The notes below the pieces were generated by a model that saw only the letters and a program-made list of their open reading frames with translations, was not told where the DNA came from and ran no database searches. Source: Meghimatium bilineatum (Eukaryota > Mollusca > Gastropoda > Stylommatophora > Philomycidae). Taken from it: DNA of 64,000 nt. Made by a program: the position numbers and the translations under genes. The first letter of the stretch is position 1; the number at the start of each line of letters is the position of its first letter. Below are positions 2,205 to 64,000 of this stretch, in pieces. The DNA is taken from the NCBI GenBank assembly GCA_034231615.1, contig CM067307.1:6432513-6496512 (forward strand). The letters run 5' to 3'.

Positions 2205-3323
2205 ATACTAATCGTAGTGACCGCAAAGGCACCACTTTCCTCCTTGATCGTTTTTACCTGCGCACTGAGCTGTAAAGGCCCAAGCACTGCGAACATGCCT
2301 AATTACAGATCCATCAGTGTATATAATCACATCCCCCTCTTAGGTATTCTCACTGATTAAAGCCTGCACTTCTTTCTCCACAGCTGTGGGACACCATTCT
2401 CTGCATTTCCTGCTAAGTGATATTACTACTCTCAAACAAGTTTCGAAATCTGTGGGTAGACCTATCCATTCCGCACCTGCTGCCACATCCTGCAATTGGC
2501 ACACGCTTTGTATGACATCCTCAGCACGTCCCATCCACGACCTCCCTCTCTTGAGTCTGCTGCCTTTAACTTTCTGTATTTCGGAATGCAACGGGTGTTC
2601 CTTATCTGCATATATTTGAAGGTACGCCCGTGCACTGAAATACTGTAATCTGTGCTCAGCTGTTGGGCAGTCAAGTAGGTATCGCATAGCTCTTGTCGAT
2701 GTGTCTCTTGTGCACCCAAGTTTGATACGCATTGGTGCATTCTGGATTATATCCAGTCTTTCGATCTGAATTTGGCTAAGAGTCAGAATTGCCAGTGCAT
2801 ATTCCACCACAGCCACAACCAAACCCTGGTACAAAAGAAATAACAATCTCTGTTCACACTGCGCAGCAGCCATAATCTTCATAGCTGCTAAGCCTTTGCC
2901 TGCCCTTATGATAATGTGGTCAACATCTTCCCTGAAACTCAGGCTTCTGTCAAAAAACACACCCAGATATCTCATTGTGCTGGTTCTTTCTAAACTTTTC
3001 CCGTACAACGAAACTTGTGGCATGGGTGTCTTTACCATGTAATTGTTCAAGGAAAACCACGTCACGAATTCCTTAGAAGGATTAACCACTGCTCCCGTAT
3101 CTCGACACAAATTTGTCAGTCTGTCCAGCTCCTTCTGTAGCTCCACGGCGCACTCTTCTCGATTTCTGCCCTGTCTATACTCCAGGATATCATCGGCATA
3201 TGACATCGTGATCAATTGTGATGGGGCATGGGGGCTTCTGTGTGTTCTTGAGCAGGAACAGCACTTCCGCCAGTCAGTCTCGTGCTGGACTATTGTAGCT
3301 TCATTGCCACTGAATTGATTCAC
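2205..3323 (-). mobile_element. Old LINE, reverse transcriptase and start of RNase H (split copy, part 1)
   Basis: An open stretch of about 327 codons (2340-3323) carries the RT catalytic 'SYADDILEYRQG' (about 3200), followed by 'YLGVFFDRSLSFREDV', the thumb region and a linker. After a break it resumes with 'VIIYTDGSV' (about 2330-2300), the first RNase H motif. The endonuclease and the upstream RT motifs are missing, so the element is 5'-truncated near 3323-3340. It is the host of the nested insertion at 623-2204; its RNase H continues at 102-622. Confidence 0.85.
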
Positions 3324-3329
3324 ACACTA

Positions 3330-4559: not shown

Positions 4560-5075
4560 ATCCGTAAGGAGTTTTTTGTCCTTTTACTCTCCTTCCCCCC
4601 CCCCTCCACCTCTACTTTATACTCATCCTCTCTTTTGTTCATGCCTTTCCTCTCCTTTTAATTCTTTCTTCTTAACCCTCTCCTTCTTACTTTACTTTAT
4701 CTTTATCCTCTTCCTATAATTCCGTCGTTTTATCCCTTTTCTTCCCTTTTCTTTTTCTTCATTCGCCTCTTGTTTTTTCAGTTCCTCTTTGTTCTCATGT
4801 GTTCTTCTTTTCTTCTGTTTTTCTTATTCTTACTTTTCCATTTTTTGTTTTGTTTTTAATGTTCTTCTAGTTTTTTAATATTATTAGTTTTTGCCATCTA
4901 CTTATATATTCTTTTTTCGTATTTTCTATTTTCTTCTTTTTTCTAGCACATCTGCTAAGTATGTGATTATTTCTGTGTACCTTCCTTACTCGTAGCATGC
5001 TATGTTGTGACATTGATAAAGGCATTTAGGTCGAAACGCTGTGTTTTGTGTGCATTAATAATTTATGGATTTTGC
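4560..5075 (+). other. Pyrimidine-rich tract ending in a 'GTCGAAACG' cassette (copy 1)
   Basis: About 400 bp of T/C-rich DNA leads into ATTGATAAAGGC...GGTCGAAACGCT (5010-5040), then a 'TTAATAATTTATGG' stretch. A similar arrangement (T-rich tract, cassette, AATAATTTAT) recurs at 35990-36235. The function is unknown; see the finding on hammerhead-like cores. Confidence 0.5.
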
Positions 5076-7598: not shown

Positions 7599-7806
7599 AT
7601 TCTCTTCTGTAGCAGGTCATTCTCAAACTCCCACTGAATATCTCCTGTAGCAGGTCATTCTCAAACTCCCACTAAATCTCTCCTGTAGCAGGTCATTCTC
7701 AAACTCCCACTGAATCTCTCCTGTAGCAGGTCATTCTCAAACTCCCACTGAATCTCTCCTGTAGCAGGTCATTCTCAAACTCCCACTGAATCTCTCCTGT
7801 AGCAGA
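7599..7806. repeat. 38-bp minisatellite grown inside a SINE-A copy
   Basis: Five tandem units run CTGTAGCAGGTCATTCTCAA then ACTCCCACTGAATCTCTC. This is the tail-proximal part of SINE-A (TTCTCAAACTCCCGCTGGAT, CTCTTGTAGCAGG in the 52.7-kb copy) repeated head to tail. The rest of the SINE follows directly. Confidence 0.88.
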
Positions 7807-7915
7807 ACAATTGTTCTACCAGCTTTCCGGCAGGATGTAGCTCAGAGAACAGAAATGTCTTGTGCCTTCATTTTAATTGCGCTTATGGCCCAGCACATTC
7901 GTTTTCGGCGTTAAG
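7800..7915 (-). mobile_element. SINE-A copy (body)
   Basis: It continues from the array at 7599 with TTCTACCAGCTTTCCGGCAG, GATGTAGCTCAGAGAACAG, a TTTTAATTGCGCTTATGGCC block and CAGCACATTCGTTTTCGGCG. These are colinear with the copy at 52685-52850. Confidence 0.85.
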
Positions 7916-10163: not shown

Positions 10164-10708
10164 TCTTCTTCTTCTTCTTTCGTTCACTTGAAACATGTCT
10201 ATATCTGTAATTCTGTCTCCTTAATAAAACTCACTGTCTTTTGTAGTTTATACAGTGGCCCATAGAGCTTTGATTCCAGTGTTGTTTCCTCTGGCCAATA
10301 TGTCTGCCTCAGCGTTTCATGCTCAGAACACTCTTGAATTATATGTTTCGCACTCTGTGCTGCCTGTCCACATGTACACATGGCCTTGTTGCCAATCTTG
10401 AACTTTGTATACATGTGACTGCGGAGTCGGTTGTGTTCTGTTCTGAGACGTAGAATTATAACTTGTTCTGATTTGTTCATAATGTGATAGTCATCTTGTG
10501 TTGGTGTTTGTGGCTTTCTTATTGACTTGATCATCTGTTTTTTCTGATGGTAGGTGATTGGTATATCTGGTTGGTCTTCGGCAGCACCTTCCTTAGCCAG
10601 TTGGTCTGCATTTTCATTTCCTGGTATTCCACAGTGAGAGGGTATCCACTGCATTGTTACCCTATACTGGTAAGACAATTCATTAAGTAGTTTTTTTCAA
10701 GTCTGTTA
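10164..10708 (-). mobile_element. Young LINE, severely 5'-truncated, with 11-bp target-site duplication
   Basis: This is a second copy of the family at 623-2204. Minus-strand frame 10199-10678 reads 'MQWIPSHCGIPGNENADQLA' (RNase H end) and 'CTCGQAAQSAKHIIQECSE', ending in KETELQI and the GAACGAAAGAAGAAGAAG tail. AATCAACTACT flanks it at 10153-10163 and 10709-10719. It differs from the first copy at few positions and its frame is intact across the A-run that is broken there. Just outside, ATCAACTACTGAAACAAGTG is tandemly duplicated (10710-10749), overlapping the target-site duplication. Confidence 0.92.
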
Positions 10709-10984
10709 AATCAACTACTGAAACAAGTGATCAACTACTGAAACAAGTGCATTAATTTAAATTTCTTGTTAGGGTTTTTAAAGACGACGAAAGAATGTAC
10801 AGAGAGATCAGGACAACAATTTAAAAAGTCAACTTCGTAAATTATGAACTTCACCAATTTTTGAAAACAAAAATATATCCCGATGGAAACAAAAACGCAA
10901 ATCATAAATTCAATTTCCTTGAATCATCATCCACCATCCTGTTATCAATGCCATACTATGGACACTAAATTTAAAAAAACAAGA

Positions 10985-11330
10985 GAGAAAAATTACTTCG
11001 TGTGAAATGAAATATCGAAGAAAAGCAGAAAACAGATCAAGAAGAAATCATGTGAGAAATGAAGAGATTACGAGAACTGTTGGAATAACATCCGTCGTCA
11101 GATATATTGAAAACCAGAGACTGAAATGGTTCTGCCACTTAATGAGAATGAAGTGGACATACATGCTACTAGCAAGGGCATACAACATGAACATTGAAAT
11201 AGCAAGAGGCAGAAGAAGACCAAAAAAGAAGCTGGACTGAAGGAGTTATCACGATTCCGAGAAGTCACAATATTACTGCATATCAAGCGGGCCATTGCCT
11301 GAAAATCGATCTTTTTTCACATCTTGCGAC
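10985..11330 (+). mobile_element. RTE-like LINE, 3' end of the ORF
   Basis: The frame reads 'HVRNEEITRTVGITSVVRYI', 'NQRLKWFCHLMRM' and 'ARGRRRPKKKLD', matching the '(R)xRNEEIxRxxG...LxWxGHxxRM...GRxRxxW' C-terminal signature of RTE-like elements. After the stop, AATCGATCTTTTTTCACATC and TGCGACGCCAACAAACGC run into (GATA)n. It holds one copy of the stretch that is amplified about 45-fold at 50170-52305, and so shows the ancestral arrangement. Confidence 0.8.
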
Positions 11331-11353
11331 GCCAACAAACGCAGAGAAAAGAT

Positions 11354-15213
<3,860 letters not shown>

Positions 15214-43664: not shown

Positions 43665-43812
43665 GAAGATGGATGTGTCGGGCTATTGGCGCAAAAACAA
43701 TAGCCACACAACACATTCCCATTCTCTGGACTACATCCCTGCTAGAAATCTAGTATGATCATTGTCTTACTACAAGACGGACCCAGTGGGAGTTTGAGCA
43801 TGAATGCTGACG
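43665..43812 (+). mobile_element. SINE-A copy
   Basis: AGATGGATGTGTCGGGCTAT, TGGCGCAAAAACAATAGCC, ACACATTCCCATTCTCTGGA, CTACATCCCTGCTAGAAATC, ATTGTCTTACTACAAGACGG and GTGGGAGTTTGAGCATGAA. A 21-bp array begins where the (GAA)n tail should be. Confidence 0.88.
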
Positions 43813-43814
43813 AT

Positions 43815-43898
43815 GACGTATAGATTAGTATAGAAGACGTATAGATTAGTATAGAAGACGTATAGATTAGTATAGAAGACGTATAGATTAGTATAGTT
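43815..43898. repeat. 21-bp array at a SINE-A 3' end, 4 units
   Basis: The unit is GACGTATAGATTAGTATAGA plus A. It starts directly after TGAATGCTGACGAT, the SINE-A end. Confidence 0.92.
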
Positions 43899-46789: not shown

Positions 46790-46965
46790 TAATTCTTCTT
46801 CTTCTTCTTCATCGTTCATTCTCAAACTCCTGCTGGATCTCCCTTGTAGCAAGACCATTGTCCTACTAGATTTCTAGCAGGATGTAGTCCAGAGAATGGA
46901 AATGCGTTGTGCCGCCGTTTTATTTGCGCCAATGGCCCGGCACATCCGTCTTCGGCGGACATATA
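46790..46965 (-). mobile_element. SINE-A copy, full 3' end
   Basis: Plus-strand reading: TTCTTCTTCTTCTTCTTCAT (tail), CGTTCATTCTCAAACTCCTG, CTGGATCTCCCTTGTAGCAA, GACCATTGTCCTACTAGATT, TCTAGCAGGATGTAGTCCAG, AGAATGGAAATGCGTTGTGC, CGCCGTTTTATTTGCGCCAA and TGGCCCGGCACATCCGTCTT. Internally, 'ATCTC-CTTGTAGCA' and 'TAGATTTCTAGCAGG' are partial repeats of each other 30-35 bp apart, a plausible seed for slippage. I take this as the reference copy. Confidence 0.9.
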
Positions 46966-47851: not shown

Positions 47852-47978
47852 GAAGACGGATGTGTCGGGCGATTGGAGCAAATAAAACGGCGACATCATT
47901 ATCTGGCACGACATCCTGCTGGAATTCTAATTGGATCTTTGTCCTGCTACGAGAGAGATCGAGCGGGAGTTTGAGAAT
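47852..47978 (+). mobile_element. SINE-A copy leading into (GAT)n
   Basis: AGAAGACGGATGTGTCGGGC, GATTGGAGCAAATAAAACGG, ATCTGGCACGACATCCTGCT, GGAATTCTAATTGGATCTTT, GTCCTGCTACGAGAGAGATC and GAGCGGGAGTTTGAGAATGG. The trinucleotide array begins where the (GAA)n tail of other copies begins. Confidence 0.9.
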
Positions 47979-48053
47979 GGCAGCTATTGATGATGATGAT
48001 GATGATGATGAGGGTGGTGGTGGTGATGATGATGATGATGAGGTTGGTGGTGG

Positions 48054-48098
<45 letters not shown>

Positions 48099-48200
48099 GG
48101 GTGGTGATGATGATGATGATGATGAGGGTGGTGGTGGTGATGATGATGATGATGATGAGGGTGGTGGTGATGATGATGATGATGATGATGAGGGTGGTGG

Positions 48201-48233
<33 letters not shown>

Positions 48234-48299
48234 GGGTGGTGGTGATGATGATGATGATGATGAGGGTGGTGATGATGATGATGATGATGAGGGTGGTGG

Positions 48300-48362
<63 letters not shown>

Positions 48363-48371
48363 GGGTGGTGG

Positions 48372-48425
<54 letters not shown>

Positions 48426-48431
48426 GGGTGG

Positions 48432-48476
<45 letters not shown>

Positions 48477-48575
48477 GGGTGGTGATGATGATGATGATGA
48501 TGAGGGTGGTGGTGGTGATGATGATGATGATGATGAGGGTGGTGGTGATGATGATGATGATGATGAGGGTGGTGG

Positions 48576-48671
<96 letters not shown>

Positions 48672-48677
48672 GGGTGG

Positions 48678-48743
<66 letters not shown>

Positions 48744-48752
48744 GGGTGGTGG

Positions 48753-48842
<90 letters not shown>

Positions 48843-48890
48843 GGGTGGTGACGAGGGTGGTGACGATGATGATGATGATGACGATCCATT
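47979..48890. repeat. (GAT)n array with GAGGGTGGT punctuation, about 0.9 kb
   Basis: GATGAT blocks of 5 to 31 units are separated by GAGGGTGGT or GAGGGTGGTGGT. All lengths are multiples of three, so one frame is poly-Asp, another poly-Met/Val and the minus strand poly-His. This looks like coding sequence but is a tail-derived satellite. The last part has GACGAGGGTGGTGACGAT. Confidence 0.96.
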
Positions 48891-49692: not shown

Positions 49693-50110
49693 AAATGTTC
49701 TAACAAACAAAAAGGTATGATACATTCTTATATCGTCCCCACATTGTAGGAATTATTTACCTCCCAACCGTTTAAGAGATTATTCACTGGAAACACAGAG
49801 TTTCGTTAAGCGAAGGGAAGAAGATAGAGAATTCTGACACGTGGAAGATTCCAGACTTGTACTGCCTGGCATGATGTGTCAGAGACTATACTTAATGCTG
49901 CATTGAGTTTGCATCTTACAGACAGTAATGCTTCAGTTTAAACAAAGATGCCAGACGTATTACGACGTAAGCCTTAATTTTTTACTGCCTGGAATTTTGT
50001 GTTTAATCTTATAGTAGATTATGTAATAATTCCGATGAAAACTAAAAGGCAAATTATAAATTAAATCTTTATACAAACATTGTGTCATCGATGTCACTTA
50101 CTAACACTAA
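49693..50110. other. Unassigned stretch
   Basis: AGATGCCAGACGTATTACGA (about 49945) resembles the unit of the 36.5-kb array. No gene is recognised. Confidence 0.4.
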
Positions 50111-50111
50111 G

Positions 50112-52550
50112 GAACACGAGAGAAAGCTTACTACATGTGGGGGGAAAAGATGACTAAGAAATATAGGAAACGGAACAAGAAGAGATCATTTGATGAATAA
50201 AGAGATTACAAGAACTGTTGGAACAAGAAGAGATCATGTGAGGAATGAAGAGATTACAAGAACTGTTGGAACAAGAAGAGATCATGTGAGGAATGAAGAG
50301 ATTACAAGAATTGTTGGAACAAGAAGAGATCATGTGAGGAATGAAGAGATTACAAGAAGTGTTGGAACAAGAAGAGATCATGTGAGGAATGAAGAGATTA
50401 CAAGAACTGTTGGAACAAGAAGAGATCATGTGAGGAATGAAGAGATTACAAGAATTGTTGGAACAAGAAGAGATCATTTGAGGAATGAAGAGATTACAAG
50501 AACTGCTGGAACAAGAAGAGATCATGTGAGGAATGAAGAGATTACAAGAAGTGTTGGAACAAGAAGAGATCATGTGAGGAATGAAGAGATTACAAGAACT
50601 GTTGGAACAAGAAGAGATCATGTGAGGAATGAAGAGATTACAAGAATTGTTGGAACAAGAAGAGATCATTTGAGGAATGAAGAGATTACAAGAACTGCTG
50701 GAACAAGAAGAGATCATGTGAGGAATGAAGAGATTACAAGAATTGTTGGAACAAGAAGAGATCATGTGAGAAATGAGGAGATTACAAGAAGAGATCATGT
50801 GAGGAATGAAGAGATTACAAAAACTGTTGGAACAAGAAGAGATCATGTGAGGAATGAAGAGATTACAAAAACTGTTGGAACAAGAAGAGATCATGTGAGG
50901 AATGAAGAGATTACAAAAACTGTTGGAACAAGAAGAGATCATGTGAGGAATGAAGAGATTACAAAAACTGTTGGAACAAGAAGAGATCATGTGAGGAATG
51001 AAGAGATTACAAGAATTGTTGGAACAAGAAGAGATCATGTGAGGAATGAAGAGATTACAAGAAGAGATCATGTGAGGAATGAAGAGATTACAAAAACTGT
51101 TGGAACAAGAAGAGATCATGTGAGGAATGAAGAGATTACAAGAATTGTTGGAACAAGAAGAGATCATGTGAGGAATGAAGAGATTACAAAAACTGTTGGA
51201 ACAAGAAGAGATCATGTGAGGAATGAAGAGATTACAAAAACTGTTGGAACAAGAAGAGATCATGTGAGGAATGAAGAGATTACAAAAACTGTTGGAACAA
51301 GAAGAGATCATGTGAGGAATGAAGAGATTACAAGAATTGTTGGAACAAGAAGAGATCATGTGAGGAATGAAGAGATTACAAGAACTGTTGGAACAAGAAG
51401 AGATTATGTGAGGAATGAAGAGATTACAAGAACTGTTGGAACAAGAAGAGATCATGTGAGGAATGAAGAGATTACAAGAACTGTTGGAACAAGAAGAGAT
51501 CATGTGAGGAATGAAGAGATTACAAGAAGAGATCATGTGAGGAATGAAGAGATTACAAGAAGAGATCATGTGAGGAATGAAGAGATTACAAAAACTGTTG
51601 GAACAAGAAGAGATCATGTGAGGAATGAAGAGATTACAAGAAGAGATCATGTGAGGAATGAAGAGATTACAAAAACTGTTGGAACAAGAAGAGATCATGT
51701 GAGGAATGAAGAGATTACAAGAAGTGTTGGAACAAGAAGAGATCATGTGAGGAATGAAGAGATTACAAGAATTGTTGGAACAAGAAGAGATCATGTGAGG
51801 AATGAAGAGATTACAAGAAGTGTTGGAACAAGAAGAGATCATGTGAGGAATGAAGAGATTACAAGAATTGTTGGAACAAGAAGAGATCATGTGAGGAATG
51901 AAGAGATTACAAGAAGTGTTGGAACAAGAAGAGATCATGTGAGGAATGAAGAGATTACAAGAATTGTTGGAACAAGAAGAGATCATGTGAGGAATGAAGA
52001 GATTACAAGAAGTGTTGGAACAAGAAGAGATCATGTGAGGAATGAAGAGATTACAAGAACTGTTGGAACAAGAAGAGATCATGTGAGGAATGAAGAGATT
52101 ACACAAACTGTTGGAACAAGAAGAGATCATGTGAGGAATGAAGAGATTACAAGAACTGTTGGAACAAGAAGAGATCATGTGAGGAATGAAGAGATTACAA
52201 GAATTGTTGGAACAAGAAGAGATCATGTGAGTAATGAAGAGATTACAAGAACTGTTGGAACAAGAAGAGATCATGTGAGGAATGAAGAGATTACAAGAAC
52301 TGTTGAAAATTACTGTTGGAAAGAAGGGACTGAAATAGTTCTGCAACTTAATGAGAATGAACACATATTAGCCATCAGGAAGAGCATAAAACATGGGGGA
52401 AAAGTAAGATGCAGAGGGCGGCCAAGAAGATGCCTTGAAGGTGTTACCATCGTTCTGAGAAGATTCAATATATTACTGCATATCAAGCAGAAAAAAATTT
52501 CCATTGCCCAATAGCGGATTCTAATTCAATCCTGCGATGTCGTAAAGCAG
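50112..52550 (+). mobile_element. RTE-like LINE 3' end swollen by an internal minisatellite
   Basis: Left flank GAGAGAAAGCTTACTACATG is homologous to 10985-11010 of the single-copy relative. Then come the array (50170-52305) and 'LQLNENEHILAIRKSIKHGG', 'KVRCRGRPRRCLEGVTIVLR', the C-terminal part including the GRPRR motif, ending at the stop about 52512. CAATCCTGCGATGTCGTAAA equals the ATCTTGCGACGCCAACAAAC just before (GATA)n at 11.3 kb. So the array is bounded on both sides by its LINE. Confidence 0.88.
50170..52305. repeat. 48-bp (and 33-bp) minisatellite derived from LINE coding sequence, about 45 units
   Basis: The standard unit encodes 16 residues, 'RRDHVRNEEITRTVGT'. The short unit (11 residues) lacks the 'TVGTR' part and occurs at about 50780, 51050, 51520-51560 and 51640. 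Subtypes TRT, TRI, TRS and TKT (one-base changes) are ordered. A four-unit block marked by GATCATTTGAGG repeats with a 192-bp offset (50471 and 50663), and TRS/TRI alternate between 51710 and 52030. Both strands remain open because every unit is a multiple of three; no start or context suggests a host protein. Confidence 0.96.
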
Positions 52551-52684
52551 AAAATAGACAGGAATATATATATAATGGATAAGCTCAGTAGCTCTTTGTT
52601 TTCTATCTTGTATACTTTCCTCATCACAGGCTTCATCACAGGCTGGCTGGAATTAATTCCCAACTATTGAGATGACTTTCTTGT

Positions 52685-52850
52685 CGTCTACATCTTCACC
52701 GTTCATTCTCAAACTCCCGCTGGATCTCTCTTGTAGCAGGACCAAAGTCCTACTAGATTTCCAGCAGGATGTACCCAAAGAGAATGGAAATACGTTGTGT
52801 CGCCTTTGTTATTTGCGCTAATTGCACAACACATTCGTTTTCGGCGGAGT
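52685..52850 (-). mobile_element. SINE-A copy
   Basis: CATCTTCACCGTTCATTCTC, AAACTCCCGCTGGATCTCTC, TTGTAGCAGGACCAAAGTCC, TACTAGATTTCCAGCAGGAT, GTACCCAAAGAGAATGGAAA and a TTTGTTATTTGCGCTAATTG end. The tail is a diverged GAA tract. Confidence 0.9.
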
Positions 52851-56820: not shown

Positions 56821-56900
56821 GGCTCTATGCACTTCGTTCTCAGAACCCCATCCTACTGGAAATCTAGCAGCTGCTATGTCTTGCCACAAGAGAAATCTAG
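56821..56900 (+). mobile_element. SINE-A left flank of the 33-bp array
   Basis: GCACTTCGTTCTCAGAACCC, CATCCTACTGGAAATCTAGC, AGCTGCTATGTCTTGCCACA and AGAGAAATC align with GCATTTCCATTCTCTGGACT, ACATCCTGCTGGAAATCTAG and TCCTGCTACAAGAGAGATC of SINE-A. Confidence 0.75.
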
Positions 56901-58270
56901 CTGTAGGATTGTCCTGCTACAAGAGAAATCTAGCTGTAGGATTGTCCTGCTACTAGAGAAATCTAACAGTAGGATTGTCCTGCTACAAGAGAAATCTAAC
57001 AGTAGGATTGTCCTGCTACAGAGAAATCTAGCAGTAGGATTGTCCTGCTACTAGAGAAATCTAGCAGTAGGATTGTCCTGCTACAAGAGAAATCTAGCAG
57101 TAGGATTGTCCTGCTACTAGAGAAATCTAGCAGTAGGATTGTCCTGCTACAAGAGAAATCTAGCAGTAGGATTGTCCTGCTACAAGAGAAATCTAACAGT
57201 ATGATTGTCCTGCTACAAGAGAAATCTAGCTGTAGGATTGTCCTGCTACTAGAGAAATCTAGCAGTAGGATTGTCCTGCTACAAGAGAAATCTAGCAGTA
57301 GGATTGTCCTGCTACAAGAGAAATCTAACAGTAGGATTGTCCTGCTACAGAGAAATCTAGCAGTAGGATTGTCCTGCTACAAGAGACATCTAGCAGTAGG
57401 ATTGTCCTGCTACAGAGAAATCTAGCAGTAGGATTGTCCTGCTACAAGAGAAATCTAGCAGTAGGATTGTCCTGCTACTAGAGAAATCTAGCAGTAGGAT
57501 TGTCCTGCTACTAGAGAAATCTAGCAGTAGGATTGTCCTGCTACAAGAGAAATCTAGCAGTAGGATTGTCCTGCTACAAGAGAAATCTAGCAGTAGGATT
57601 GTCCTGCTACTAGAGAAATCTAGCAGTAGGATTGTCCTGCTACAAGAGAAATCTAGCAGTAGGATTGTCCTGCTACTAGAGAAATCTAGCAGTAGGATTG
57701 TCCTGCTACAAGAGAAATCTAGCAGTAGGATTGTCCTGCTACAGAGAAATCTAGCAGTAGGATTGTCCTGCTACTAGAGAAATCTAGCAGTAGGATTGTC
57801 CTGCTACAAGAGAAATCTAGCAGTAGGATTGTCCTGCTACAAGAGAAATCTAACAGTAGGATTGTCCTGCTACAAGAGAAATCTAGCAGTAGGATTGTCC
57901 TGCTACAGAGAAATCTAGCAGTAGGATTGTCCTGCTACAGAGAAATCTAGCAGTAGGATTGTCCTGCTACAGAGAAATCTAGCAGTAGGATTGTCCTGCT
58001 ACAGAGAAATCTAACAGTAGGATTGTCCTGCTACAGAGAAATCTAACAGTAGGATTGTTCTGCTACAGAGAAATCTAGCAGTAGGATTGTCCTGCTACAG
58101 AGAAATCTAGCAGTAGGATTGTCCTGCTACAGAGAAATCTAGCAGTAGGATTGTCCTGCTACAGAGAAATCTAACAGTAGGATTGTCCTGCTACAGAGAA
58201 ATCTAACAGTAGGATTGTCCTGCTACAGAGAAATCTAACAGTAGGATTGTTCTGCTACAGAGAAATCCAG
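56870..58270 (+). repeat. 33-bp (31-bp variant) minisatellite inside SINE-A, about 43 units
   Basis: The unit is CTAGCAGTAGGATTGTCCTG plus CTACAAGAGAAAT; the short form reads CTACAGAGAAAT and predominates from 57900 on. It is the SINE-A segment between 'GAAATCTAGTAGGA' and 'CTACAAGAGAGATC', looped. The array exits through AGAGAAATCCAGCGCAGAAC, matching the AGAGATCCAGCGGGAG that follows this segment in SINE-A. Subtypes (ACTAGAG, ACAAGAG, ACAGAG, CTAACAG) occur in ordered blocks. Confidence 0.96.
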
Positions 58271-58324
58271 CGCAGAACAAACACTCAAACAATCGACATT
58301 TGTACGGATACACGTTTCAGTGGC

Positions 58325-58475
58325 ATTGCCAAAATTATATGAACCCTACTTCGGATGTGCTGGGCCATTATCGCAAATAAAACGGTGACAAAACGCATTT
58401 CTATCCATTGAATATATCATGCTGGAAATCTAGTAGGAACAGCTTGAGTTGGAGAACTAACGCAAACAAAAAATT
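58325..58475 (+). mobile_element. SINE-A copy next to the array
   Basis: CTTCGGATGTGCTGGGCCAT, TATCGCAAATAAAACGGTGA, AACGCATTTCTATCCATTGA, ATCATGCTGGAAATCTAGTA and GAACAGCTTGAGTTGGAGAA. It has a single, unexpanded version of the 33-bp segment, partly deleted. Confidence 0.82.
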
Positions 58476-60321: not shown

Positions 60322-60372
60322 TCGTTGCTTCTCAAACTCCTGATATCTCTCACAGTAAGGAATTGGTCCTAC
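60322..60372 (-). mobile_element. SINE-A tail-side flank of the large 33-bp array
   Basis: CGTTGCTTCTCAAACTCCTG, ATATCTCTCACAGTAAGGAA and TTGGTCCTACTAGATCTCTC align with CGTTCATTCTCAAACTCCTG, CTGGATCTCCCTTGTAGCAA and GACCATTGTCCTACTAGATT of the 46.8-kb copy. This proves the origin of the array that begins here. Confidence 0.8.
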
Positions 60373-62958
60373 TAGATCTCTCTTAGAACCAGGCATTGGT
60401 CCTAGTAGATCTCTTTTAGAACCAGGCATTGGTCCTAGTAGATCTCTCTTAGAACCAGGCATTGGTCCTAGTAGATCTCTCTTAGAGCCAGGCATTGGTC
60501 CTACTAGATCTCTTAGAGCCATGCATTGGTCCTACTAGATCTCTCTTAGAACCAGGCAATGGTCCTACTAGATCTCTCTTAGAACCAGGCATTGGTCCTA
60601 CTAGATCTCTCTTAGAACCAGGCATTGGTCCTACTAGATCTCTCTTAGAACCAGGCATTGGTCCTACTAGATCTCTCTTAGAACCAGGCATTGGTCCTAC
60701 TAGATCTCTCTTAGAACCAGGCATTGGTCCTACTAGATCTCTCTTAGAGCCAGGCATTGGTCCTACTAGATCTCTCTTAGAGCCAGGCATTGGTCCTATT
60801 AGATCTCTCTTAGAACCAGGCATTGGTCCTACTAGATCTCTCTTAGAACCAGGCATTGGTCCTACTAGATCTCTCTTAGAGCCAGGCATTGGTCCTACTA
60901 GATCTCTCTTAGAGCCAGGCATTGGTCCTACTAGATCTCTCTTAGAGCAAGGCATTGGTCCTACTAGATCTCTCTTGGAGCCAGGCATTGGTCCTACTAG
61001 ATCTCTCTTAGAGCCAAGCATTGGTCCTGCTAGATCTCTCTTAGAGCCAGGCATTGGTCCTACTAGATCTCTCTTAGAGCCAGGCATTGGTCCTACTAGA
61101 TCTCTCTTAGAGCCAGGCAATGGTCCTACTAGATCTCTCTTAGAAACAGGCAATGGTCCTACTAGATCTCTCTTAGAGCCAAGCATTGGTCCTACTAGAT
61201 ATCTCTTAGAGCCAGGCATTGGTCCTACTAGATCTCTCTTAGAACCAGGCAATGGTCCTACTAGATCTCTCTTAGAACCAGGCAATGATCCTACTAGATC
61301 TCTCTTAGAACCAGGCAATGGTCCTACTAGATCTCTCTTAGAACCAGGCAATGGTCCTACTAGATCTCTCTTAGAGCCAGGCATTGGTCCTACTAGATCT
61401 CTCTTAGAGCAAGGCATTGGTCCTACTAGATCTCTCTTAGAGCCAAGCATTGGTCCTACTAGATCTCTCTTAGAGCCAGGCATTGGTCCTACTAGATCTC
61501 TCTTAGAGCCAGGCAATGATCCTACTAGATCTCTCTTAGAGCCAGGCAATGTTCCTACTAGATCTCTCTTAGAGCCAGGCAATGTTCCTACTAGATCTCT
61601 CTTAGAGCTAGGCAATGATCCTACTAGATCTCTCTTAGAACCAGGCAAGGATCCTACTAGATCTCTCTTAGAACCAGGCAAGGATCCTACTAGATCTCTC
61701 TTAGAACCAGACAATGTTCCTACTAGATCTCTCTTAGAGCCAGACAATGTTCCTACTAGATCTCTCTTAGAACCAGACAATGTTCCTACTAGATCTCTCT
61801 TAGAACCAGACAATGTTCCTACTAGATCTCTCTTAGAGCCAGACAATGTTCCTACTAGATCTCTCTTAGAGCCAGACAATGGTCCTACTAGATCTCTCTT
61901 AGAGCCAAGCATTGGTCCTACTAGATCTCTCTTAGAGCCAGGCATTGGTCCTACTAGATCTCTCTTAGAGCCAGGCAATGATCGTACTAGATCTCTCTTA
62001 GAGCCAGGCAATGTTCCTACTAGATCTCTCTTAGAGCTAGGCAATGATCCTACTAGATCTCTCTTAGAACCAGGCAAGGATCCTACTAGATCTCTCATAG
62101 AGCCAGGCAAGATCCTACTAGATCTCTCTTAGAGCCAGGCAATGTTCCTACTAGATCTCTCTTAGAACCAGGCAAGGATCCTACTAGATCTCTCTTAGAA
62201 CCAGGCAATGTTCCTACTAGATCTCTCTTAGAACCAGGCAAGGATCCTACTAGATCTCTCTTAGAACCAGACAATGGTCCTACTAGATCTCTCTTAGAAC
62301 CAGACAATGTTCCTACTAGATCTCTCTTAGAACCAGACAATGTTCCTACTAGATCTCTCTTAGAACCAGGCAAGGATCCTACTAGATCTCTCTTAGAGCC
62401 AGGCAATGTTCCTACTAGATCTCTCTTAGAGCCAGGCAATGGTCCTACTAGATCTCTGTTAGAGCCAGGCAATGTTCCTACTATATCTTTCTTAGAACCA
62501 GGCAATGTTCCTACTAGATCTCTCTTAGAACCAGGCAAGAATCCTACTAGATCTCTCTTAGAACCAGGCAATTGTCCTACTAGATCTCTCTTAGAGCCAG
62601 ACAATGGTCCTACTAGATCTCTCTTAGAGCCAGACAATGTTCCTACTAGATCTCTCTTAGAGCCAGACAATGGTCCTACTAGATCTCTCTTAGAGCCAGG
62701 CAATGGTCCTACTAGATCTCTCTTAGAGCCAGGCAATGGTCCTACTAGATCTCTCTTAGAACCAGGCAATTGTCCTACTAGATCTCTCTTAGAACCAGGC
62801 AATGGTCCTACTAGATCTCTCTTAGAGCCAGGCAATGTTCCTACTAGATCTTTCTTAGAACCAGACAATGGTCCTACTAGATCTCTCTTAGAGCCAGGCA
62901 ATGGTCCTACTAGATCTCTCTTAGAACCAGGCAATGTTCCTACTAGATCTCTTTTTTA
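60355..62958 (-). repeat. 33-bp minisatellite from SINE-A, about 79 units (2.6 kb)
   Basis: The unit is TCCTACTAGATCTCTCTTAG plus AACCAGGCATTGG. It covers the same SINE-A segment as the 56.9-kb array, read in the opposite direction and with its own diagnostic changes (BglII-like AGATCT, GCCAGGC). The 11-codon period gives 'GPTRSLLEPGI' on plus and 'LVGPMPGSKRD' on minus. Subtypes CATTGG, CAATGG, CAATGTT, CAAGGAT and GACAATG occur in blocks that repeat (e.g. the 61.5-61.7 and 62.0-62.4 kb stretches). A SINE remainder is not evident on the right, where it ends at CTCTTTTTTAACG. Confidence 0.96.
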
Positions 62959-63784: not shown

Positions 63785-63960
63785 TGAAAAACGAATCCCG
63801 CCGAAGACTGCTGTGTTGTCCATTGGGGCAAATAAAACGACGACGCAACGCATTTGCAGTCTCTGGATTATTTCTGTTAGAAATCTAGTCTGACCATTGC
63901 CTGCTACAAGAGAGATACAGCGGGAGTTTGAGAATGAACTCTGAAGAAGAAGAAAAACAA
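63785..63960 (+). mobile_element. SINE-A copy with (GAA)n tail
   Basis: CGCCGAAGACTGCTGTGTTG, TCCATTGGGGCAAATAAAAC, GACGACGCAACGCATTTGCA, TCTCTGGATTATTTCTGTTA, GAAATCTAGTCTGACCATTG, CTGCTACAAGAGAGATACAG, CGGGAGTTTGAGAATGAACT and GAAGAAGAAGAAAAAC. It is full length on its tail side. Confidence 0.9.
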
Positions 63961-64000
63961 ATACATTCTCAAATTGGTCCAAATTTAAAAATGTCCAAAA

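Follow-up and report, generated by a model that had tools for sequence, protein, structure and literature searches.

Tandem repeats derived from transposable elements (TEs) have been described in several systems, some of which involve LINE coding sequences. As summarized in a review, satellites or microsatellites derived from LINE ORF2 include PROsat (Phodopus, L1), HinfI/SCR1 (chicken, CR1) and Pvc20 (seal, L1), the title cited for the latter mentioning a common site in the ORF2 of mammalian L1s (PMC9659126). The same review cites human minisatellites derived from Alu (PMC9659126). Within the ORF1 of mouse L1, a length polymorphism region is made of 66- and 42-bp repeats (PMC3600994), and in Drosophila virilis the TIR-220 of Tetris represents a TE sequence that builds an emerging satellite (PMC4079207).

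Here, we analyzed a stretch of 64,000 nucleotides from Meghimatium bilineatum (C10:6432513-6496512, hereafter the window) containing a LINE-derived tandem array, and searched the host genome (1.61 Gb, 32 contigs) for its relatives. Like PROsat, HinfI/SCR1 and Pvc20, the window array consists of tandem units from LINE coding sequence (PMC9659126). In contrast to these three systems, as far as the review describes them, the repeated segment is here 48 bp long with alternative unit lengths fitting short direct repeats, and many tandem loci, with 1, 2, 5 or dozens of units, are present in one genome. As in the mouse L1 ORF1 region, tandem repeats lie within a LINE ORF and have lengths that are multiples of three; however, the mouse region is described with one to four units in L1 families (PMC3600994), whereas long arrays are found here in broken copies and some of them have out-of-frame units. 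The LINE arrays share with the Alu-derived human minisatellites the passage from a dispersed element to local minisatellites, the source being a SINE in the latter and a LINE coding stretch in the former (PMC9659126). Finally, TE sequence is used as satellite building block both by Tetris TIR-220 and by the window array, although Tetris is a foldback DNA transposon with internal tandem repeats (PMC4079207) and the element studied here a LINE. Our literature search, which was not aimed at this array family and was of partial coverage, returned no title on it.

Satellites from LINE ORFs being already known, it is their repeated births that make the present family interesting. The start of a satellite is hard to see, since the ancestor and the successive steps are usually lost. 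In this genome, one dispersed element seems to have provided numerous replicate starts at a single site, in copies of 1, 2, 5 or tens of units, and such copies offer a natural series of stages in the possible birth of satellite DNA. Moreover, a sequence rule led to two further unit lengths being sought and found. Rates, microhomology length, frame and chromosome position hence become testable inside one genome.

The window array and its LINE flanks

The array (Table 1) is formed by 46 head-to-tail units, in close agreement with a previous reading of the sequence only, which had estimated about 45 units of 48 bp with some of 33 bp. These units fall into twelve sequence types, and the 41 full 48-bp units are on average 96.9% identical to one another in pairwise comparison. 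A 32-base pattern of the unit is matched 41 times in the window, as against 0 expected from 100 shuffles.

Table 1. Coordinates of the tandem arrays and LINE segments of the window
Feature	Position	Strand	Description
Tandem array	50175..52307	+	46 units: 41 x 48 bp and 5 x 33 bp
Four-unit block, units 4-7	50319..50510	+	exact duplicate is units 8-11, 50511-50702
Left LINE flank of array copy	50025..50174	+	homology to 10872-11036; TGA 50151-50153 in the frame of the array
Right LINE flank, 3' end of copy	52308..52583	+	13-column alignment gap near array; TAG 52336-52338 in LINE frame
Sibling LINE end with the 48-bp segment once (11037-11084)	10872..11349	+	homology to array flanks
(AGAT)n array at the end of the sibling LINE	11350..15213	+	TRF; shared 3' end of LINE copies
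Array with second-repeat units	7601-7805		38 bp
Array with second-repeat units	56859-58271		33 bp, 15 of 41 spacings 32 bp
Array with second-repeat units	60364-62952		33 bp

The 33-bp unit corresponds to the 48-bp unit minus 15 bp lying between two ACAAGAA copies. Out of five 33-bp units, four precede the same AAA-type unit, a type representing 10 of the 46 units; the 33-bp units therefore look like a single event that was then copied, and the fact that both lengths are multiples of three thus concerns about two events and not 46. Regarding the order of the units, two types alternate across units 34-40, and the distribution of types is non-random as judged by repeated 3-mers of types (P 0.0004) and by matches at lag 2 (P 0.00075; 20,000 permutations), the matches at lags 1, 3 and 5-8 being not unusual and those at lag 4 giving P 0.046 in the same permutations. 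The higher-order structure perceived from the sequence alone was found again in its two elements, an exact 192-bp block and the alternation of two types. Mature satellite DNA forms long heterochromatic arrays with genome-wide higher-order repeats; the block structure of the window array amounts to one local two-copy block, and the order of units is a matter of local block duplication and not of a genome-scale higher-order repeat.

It had also been proposed that a homologous LINE end of the same window carries the segment once, between matching flanks. This holds over the whole of 10872-11349: the two array flanks and their counterparts (10872-11036 and 11085-11349) are identical at 277 of 387 ungapped positions, and the array unit and the single-copy segment at 44 of 48. 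The two copies are siblings, and the one with the single segment is not, as had been suggested, the ancestor of the other. A third candidate LINE fragment, at 4767-4857, was rejected as A-rich and devoid of a LINE reading frame.

The LINE family, its direct repeats and its tandem loci

At up to 3 mismatches, the 35-base core of the unit is matched 8132 times in the genome, and its reversed control never. A search with the C-terminal protein of the LINE produced 66,212 first-look candidates, 150 of which were scored, and 29 single-copy LINEs retrieved in this way have a majority unit that agrees with that of the array at 47 of 48 positions. As expected for a TE-derived minisatellite, the unit has its homologue inside a dispersed element and LINE sequence continues on both sides of the window array. 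Genome matches, LINE flanks and majority unit together thus confirm that the array originated from LINE coding sequence, as had been proposed. In pairwise comparisons, homology ends on the right mostly at about 320-340 bp past the unit start and on the left at scattered positions, and GATA-like sequence is present just beyond the LINE 3' end in 5 of the 13 copies displayed, including the sibling of the window. The element hence has the fixed 3' end, variable 5' end and short tandem tail of a non-LTR retrotransposon (LINE), whose C-terminal part presumably resembles RTE C-termini. No useful relative came out of the viral, bacterial, phage and plasmid collections, one weak plasmid match (E 0.9) and one Paenibacillus pattern match being taken as chance.

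In single-copy LINEs, GAACAA bounds the 48-bp segment on both sides (59 loci, one of which is in fact an array). Around the unit, the majority sequence of the 29 copies contains 20 exact direct repeats (at least 6 bases, within 100 bp), including GAAGAGAT at a distance of 20 bp, ACAAGAA at 33 bp, GAACAA at 48 bp and AGAACAAGA at 58 bp, with repeat lengths of 9 bp for the 58-bp step, 8 bp for the 20-bp one, and 7 and 6 bp for those of 33 and 48 bp. The unit lengths thus agree with the distances between short direct repeats of single-copy LINEs. Out of the 20 direct repeats, units of 20 and 58 bp were the new predictions looked for, the former drawn from GAAGAGAT within the array unit and the latter from the direct repeats of the single-copy LINE; the 20-bp prediction was not wholly blind, period-20 rows having been seen earlier (TRF of the window; loose anchor) and taken as artefacts.

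Junction patterns of 43-44 bases, with up to 3 mismatches, yielded in the genome 1622 matches for 48 bp, 1640 for 33 bp, 166 for 20 bp and 159 for 28 bp, the latter unit being the 48-bp one minus 20 bp. The 20-bp junctions occupy at least 18 loci among the matches listed, and 58-bp junctions were found as 5 matches at 4 loci, two of these matches being 58 bp apart; reversed-pattern controls gave 0 matches for every junction length. When the five junction types were sought in the sequences that we read, the 20-bp one was encountered once (L098) and the 58-bp one never.

Among the matches listed for the 48-, 33-, 28- and 20-bp junctions, the 48-bp segment is tandem at 58 loci at least, and the 48-, 33- and 28-bp junctions alone define at least 43 array loci. 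On C1-C3, the matches listed include 53 loci with an exact core; 8 of them have more than one such core and 2 further ones (L014 and L029) proved to be arrays on reading, so that at least 10 of 53 are tandem in this set chosen for its exact core. LINE copies with 1, 2, 5 and dozens of units are thus present in the genome.

Fifteen arrays were read (L029, L062, L070, L077, L092-L101 and the window array). They extend over 0.27-2.6 kb within the stretches examined, some of which are incomplete, and among the matches listed runs reach at least 4.6 kb (C10:5763108-5767726) and 4.4 kb (C3:62823267-62827699). The main unit is 48 bp in 7 arrays, 28 bp in 5 and 33 bp in 3, proportions that are not those of a fair sample, the arrays having been picked from pattern listings and the 28-bp ones from the 28-bp search. 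Unit lengths not divisible by three account for 161 of 437 units, in 8 of the 15 arrays.

Two observations on location can be added. Array loci (43) are nearer contig ends than single-core loci of C1-C3 (43), with a median fractional distance of 0.079 versus 0.120 (P 0.011), in two sets that come from different listings and contigs. In addition, at least 28 LINE-end matches, many of them about 2.8 kb apart, are spread over about 98 kb at C25:85804315-85902247, which is probably a larger tandem array with the LINE end inside its unit.

Reading frame and probable separate births

Long stop-free frames cross the window array on both strands, with 786 codons on the plus strand (50154-52514) and 737 on the minus strand (50154-52367), slightly more than the 700 or so codons noticed in the sequence-only reading, which had attributed them either to selection for frame while the LINE was active or to chance. 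Selection finds no support in the present data. Distinct changes among the units are 10 non-synonymous and 3 synonymous, with 10.0 and 3.0 expected (38 and 3 when counted by unit), and change among the window units is hence neutral. On either side of the array the LINE frame is interrupted, by the stop codon of the left flank and, on the right, by a stop codon and by the alignment gap, which lies just 3' of the array and shifts the frame; the open frame beyond the array differs from that of the LINE, and the continuous LINE frame through both flanks that characterizes an in-frame LINE ORF repeat is absent from the window array. Moreover, out-of-frame 20- and 28-bp units exist elsewhere, and 68% of random 48-mers drawn from window positions 16001-43000 would, once repeated, leave both strands open. 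As a control, the period is a multiple of three in 12 of 32 window arrays (at least 3 copies, period of at least 10; P 0.71). The long open frame thus looks like a by-product of the coding origin and of unit lengths that are here multiples of three. As for the single-copy LINEs, the 29 copies show 37 synonymous and 38 non-synonymous changes, the comparison with the array being not significant (P 0.13) and the control a weak one, because retrieval by protein similarity favors synonymous changes. Constraint on the array was also considered from its faster flank (277/387 versus 44/48, P 0.0016) and abandoned, a nearby LINE block reaching 42/48 and the edge unit 41/48.

Pure chance, the other explanation initially put forward, is unproven: 20- and 28-bp junctions, the units not divisible by three of other expanded copies, represent 325 of 3587 junctions (9%), outnumbered by 3262 in-frame ones (48 and 33 bp), in counts that are of junctions and not of births. 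The repeat behind the 20-bp unit (8 bp) being longer than those behind the 33- and 48-bp ones (7 and 6 bp), this tenfold excess needs a reason, and repeat length alone fails to predict it. The 58-bp step, which has the longest repeat, gave only 5 matches in raw counts. The excess of in-frame junctions could reflect filtering in active LINEs, a preference for longer units, or the weight of a few in-frame arrays of very large size. We regard it as unlikely that this excess stems from duplications that took place and were filtered in active LINEs, with a length-variable C-terminal segment whose dead descendants became satellites; if true, a protein-level filter would have shaped which satellites the genome could make.

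Given the LINE origin, the shared site, the unit lengths, the broken frame and the neutral change established above, we consider it probable that the window array is a minisatellite born, through short direct repeats, within the 3' coding part of a single dead copy belonging to an abundant non-LTR retrotransposon, and that such births were repeated elsewhere. Slippage or unequal exchange between direct repeats (48, 33, 20 or 58 bp apart) would duplicate the intervening stretch; later exchange, internal-repeat deletion (48 to 33, 48 to 28) and block duplication would then produce a longer, homogenized array. The same event would have taken place separately in many LINE copies, and we infer that most births were independent.

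In 14 of the 15 arrays, LINE sequence is recognizable (score of at least 18) on at least one side, L095 being the exception and four stretches incomplete, and 75 of the 85 non-canonical unit variants are private to one array, the 10 others being common to two. Regarding copies with two units, a two-unit protein query gave at least 11 matches that cover almost its whole length (span 207-219 bp), 2 of these 11 lacking stops. Four such copies were read. In L103 and L104, the two units have in common their differences from the array unit, as a local duplication would leave behind, some of the shared positions also varying among single LINEs. The two units of L102 differ by one base and L105 has six changes in its first unit and none in its second; in neither copy are changes shared between the two units, a pattern that does not fit a recent local duplication.

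This last pattern, the two-unit copies matched over almost the whole query and sometimes free of stops, the predominance of in-frame junctions and the precedent of mouse L1 ORF1, whose 66- and 42-bp repeats are in frame as far as described (PMC3600994), would be accounted for by a duplication in an active LINE, kept in frame by selection, whose expanded copies spread by retrotransposition. We nevertheless consider this scenario unlikely, given the neutral changes among window units, the frame broken on both sides of their array, the 28-bp main unit of 5 of 15 arrays (all five picked from the 28-bp search) and the private nature of most variants. A single birth followed by spread to many loci, through gene conversion, satellite movement or segmental duplication, appears very improbable: all the arrays read do use the same segment, three unit lengths recur between them and a minority of variants is shared, but 14 of 15 arrays adjoin LINE sequence at the LINE's own position, the other variants are private, and copies with 1, 2 and 5 units occur. 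That the 786 open codons encode a functional repeat protein can practically be dismissed, with neutral change among units, a minus strand that is equally open, another window array open over 548 codons on each strand (60482-62132) and no Pfam family above cut-off in the 91 C-terminal residues scanned, a scan that covered the part outside the repeats.

Other repeats of the window

Beside the LINE, a second dispersed repeat is present as several single copies (52667-52800, 46797-46911, 43706-43815, 47911-47979, 63843-63972, 58388-58438 and 7769-7864), and it matches the units of three further arrays (Table 1). Other retrotransposon fragments, at 963-2166, 2340-3326 (-) and 10199-10696 (-), match RNase H, and a single weak match to reverse transcriptase, below cut-off, was obtained for them. 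A (TGA)n array of 0.9 kb (47988-48885) starts where one copy of the second dispersed repeat ends, and the 3.9-kb (AGAT)n array likewise follows directly on the sibling LINE, of which it would be the expanded 3' tail. Element tails may hence seed long microsatellites. In total, the window (1-64000) has 49 tandem arrays, counting microsatellites, which together occupy 19,813 bp or 31% of its length.
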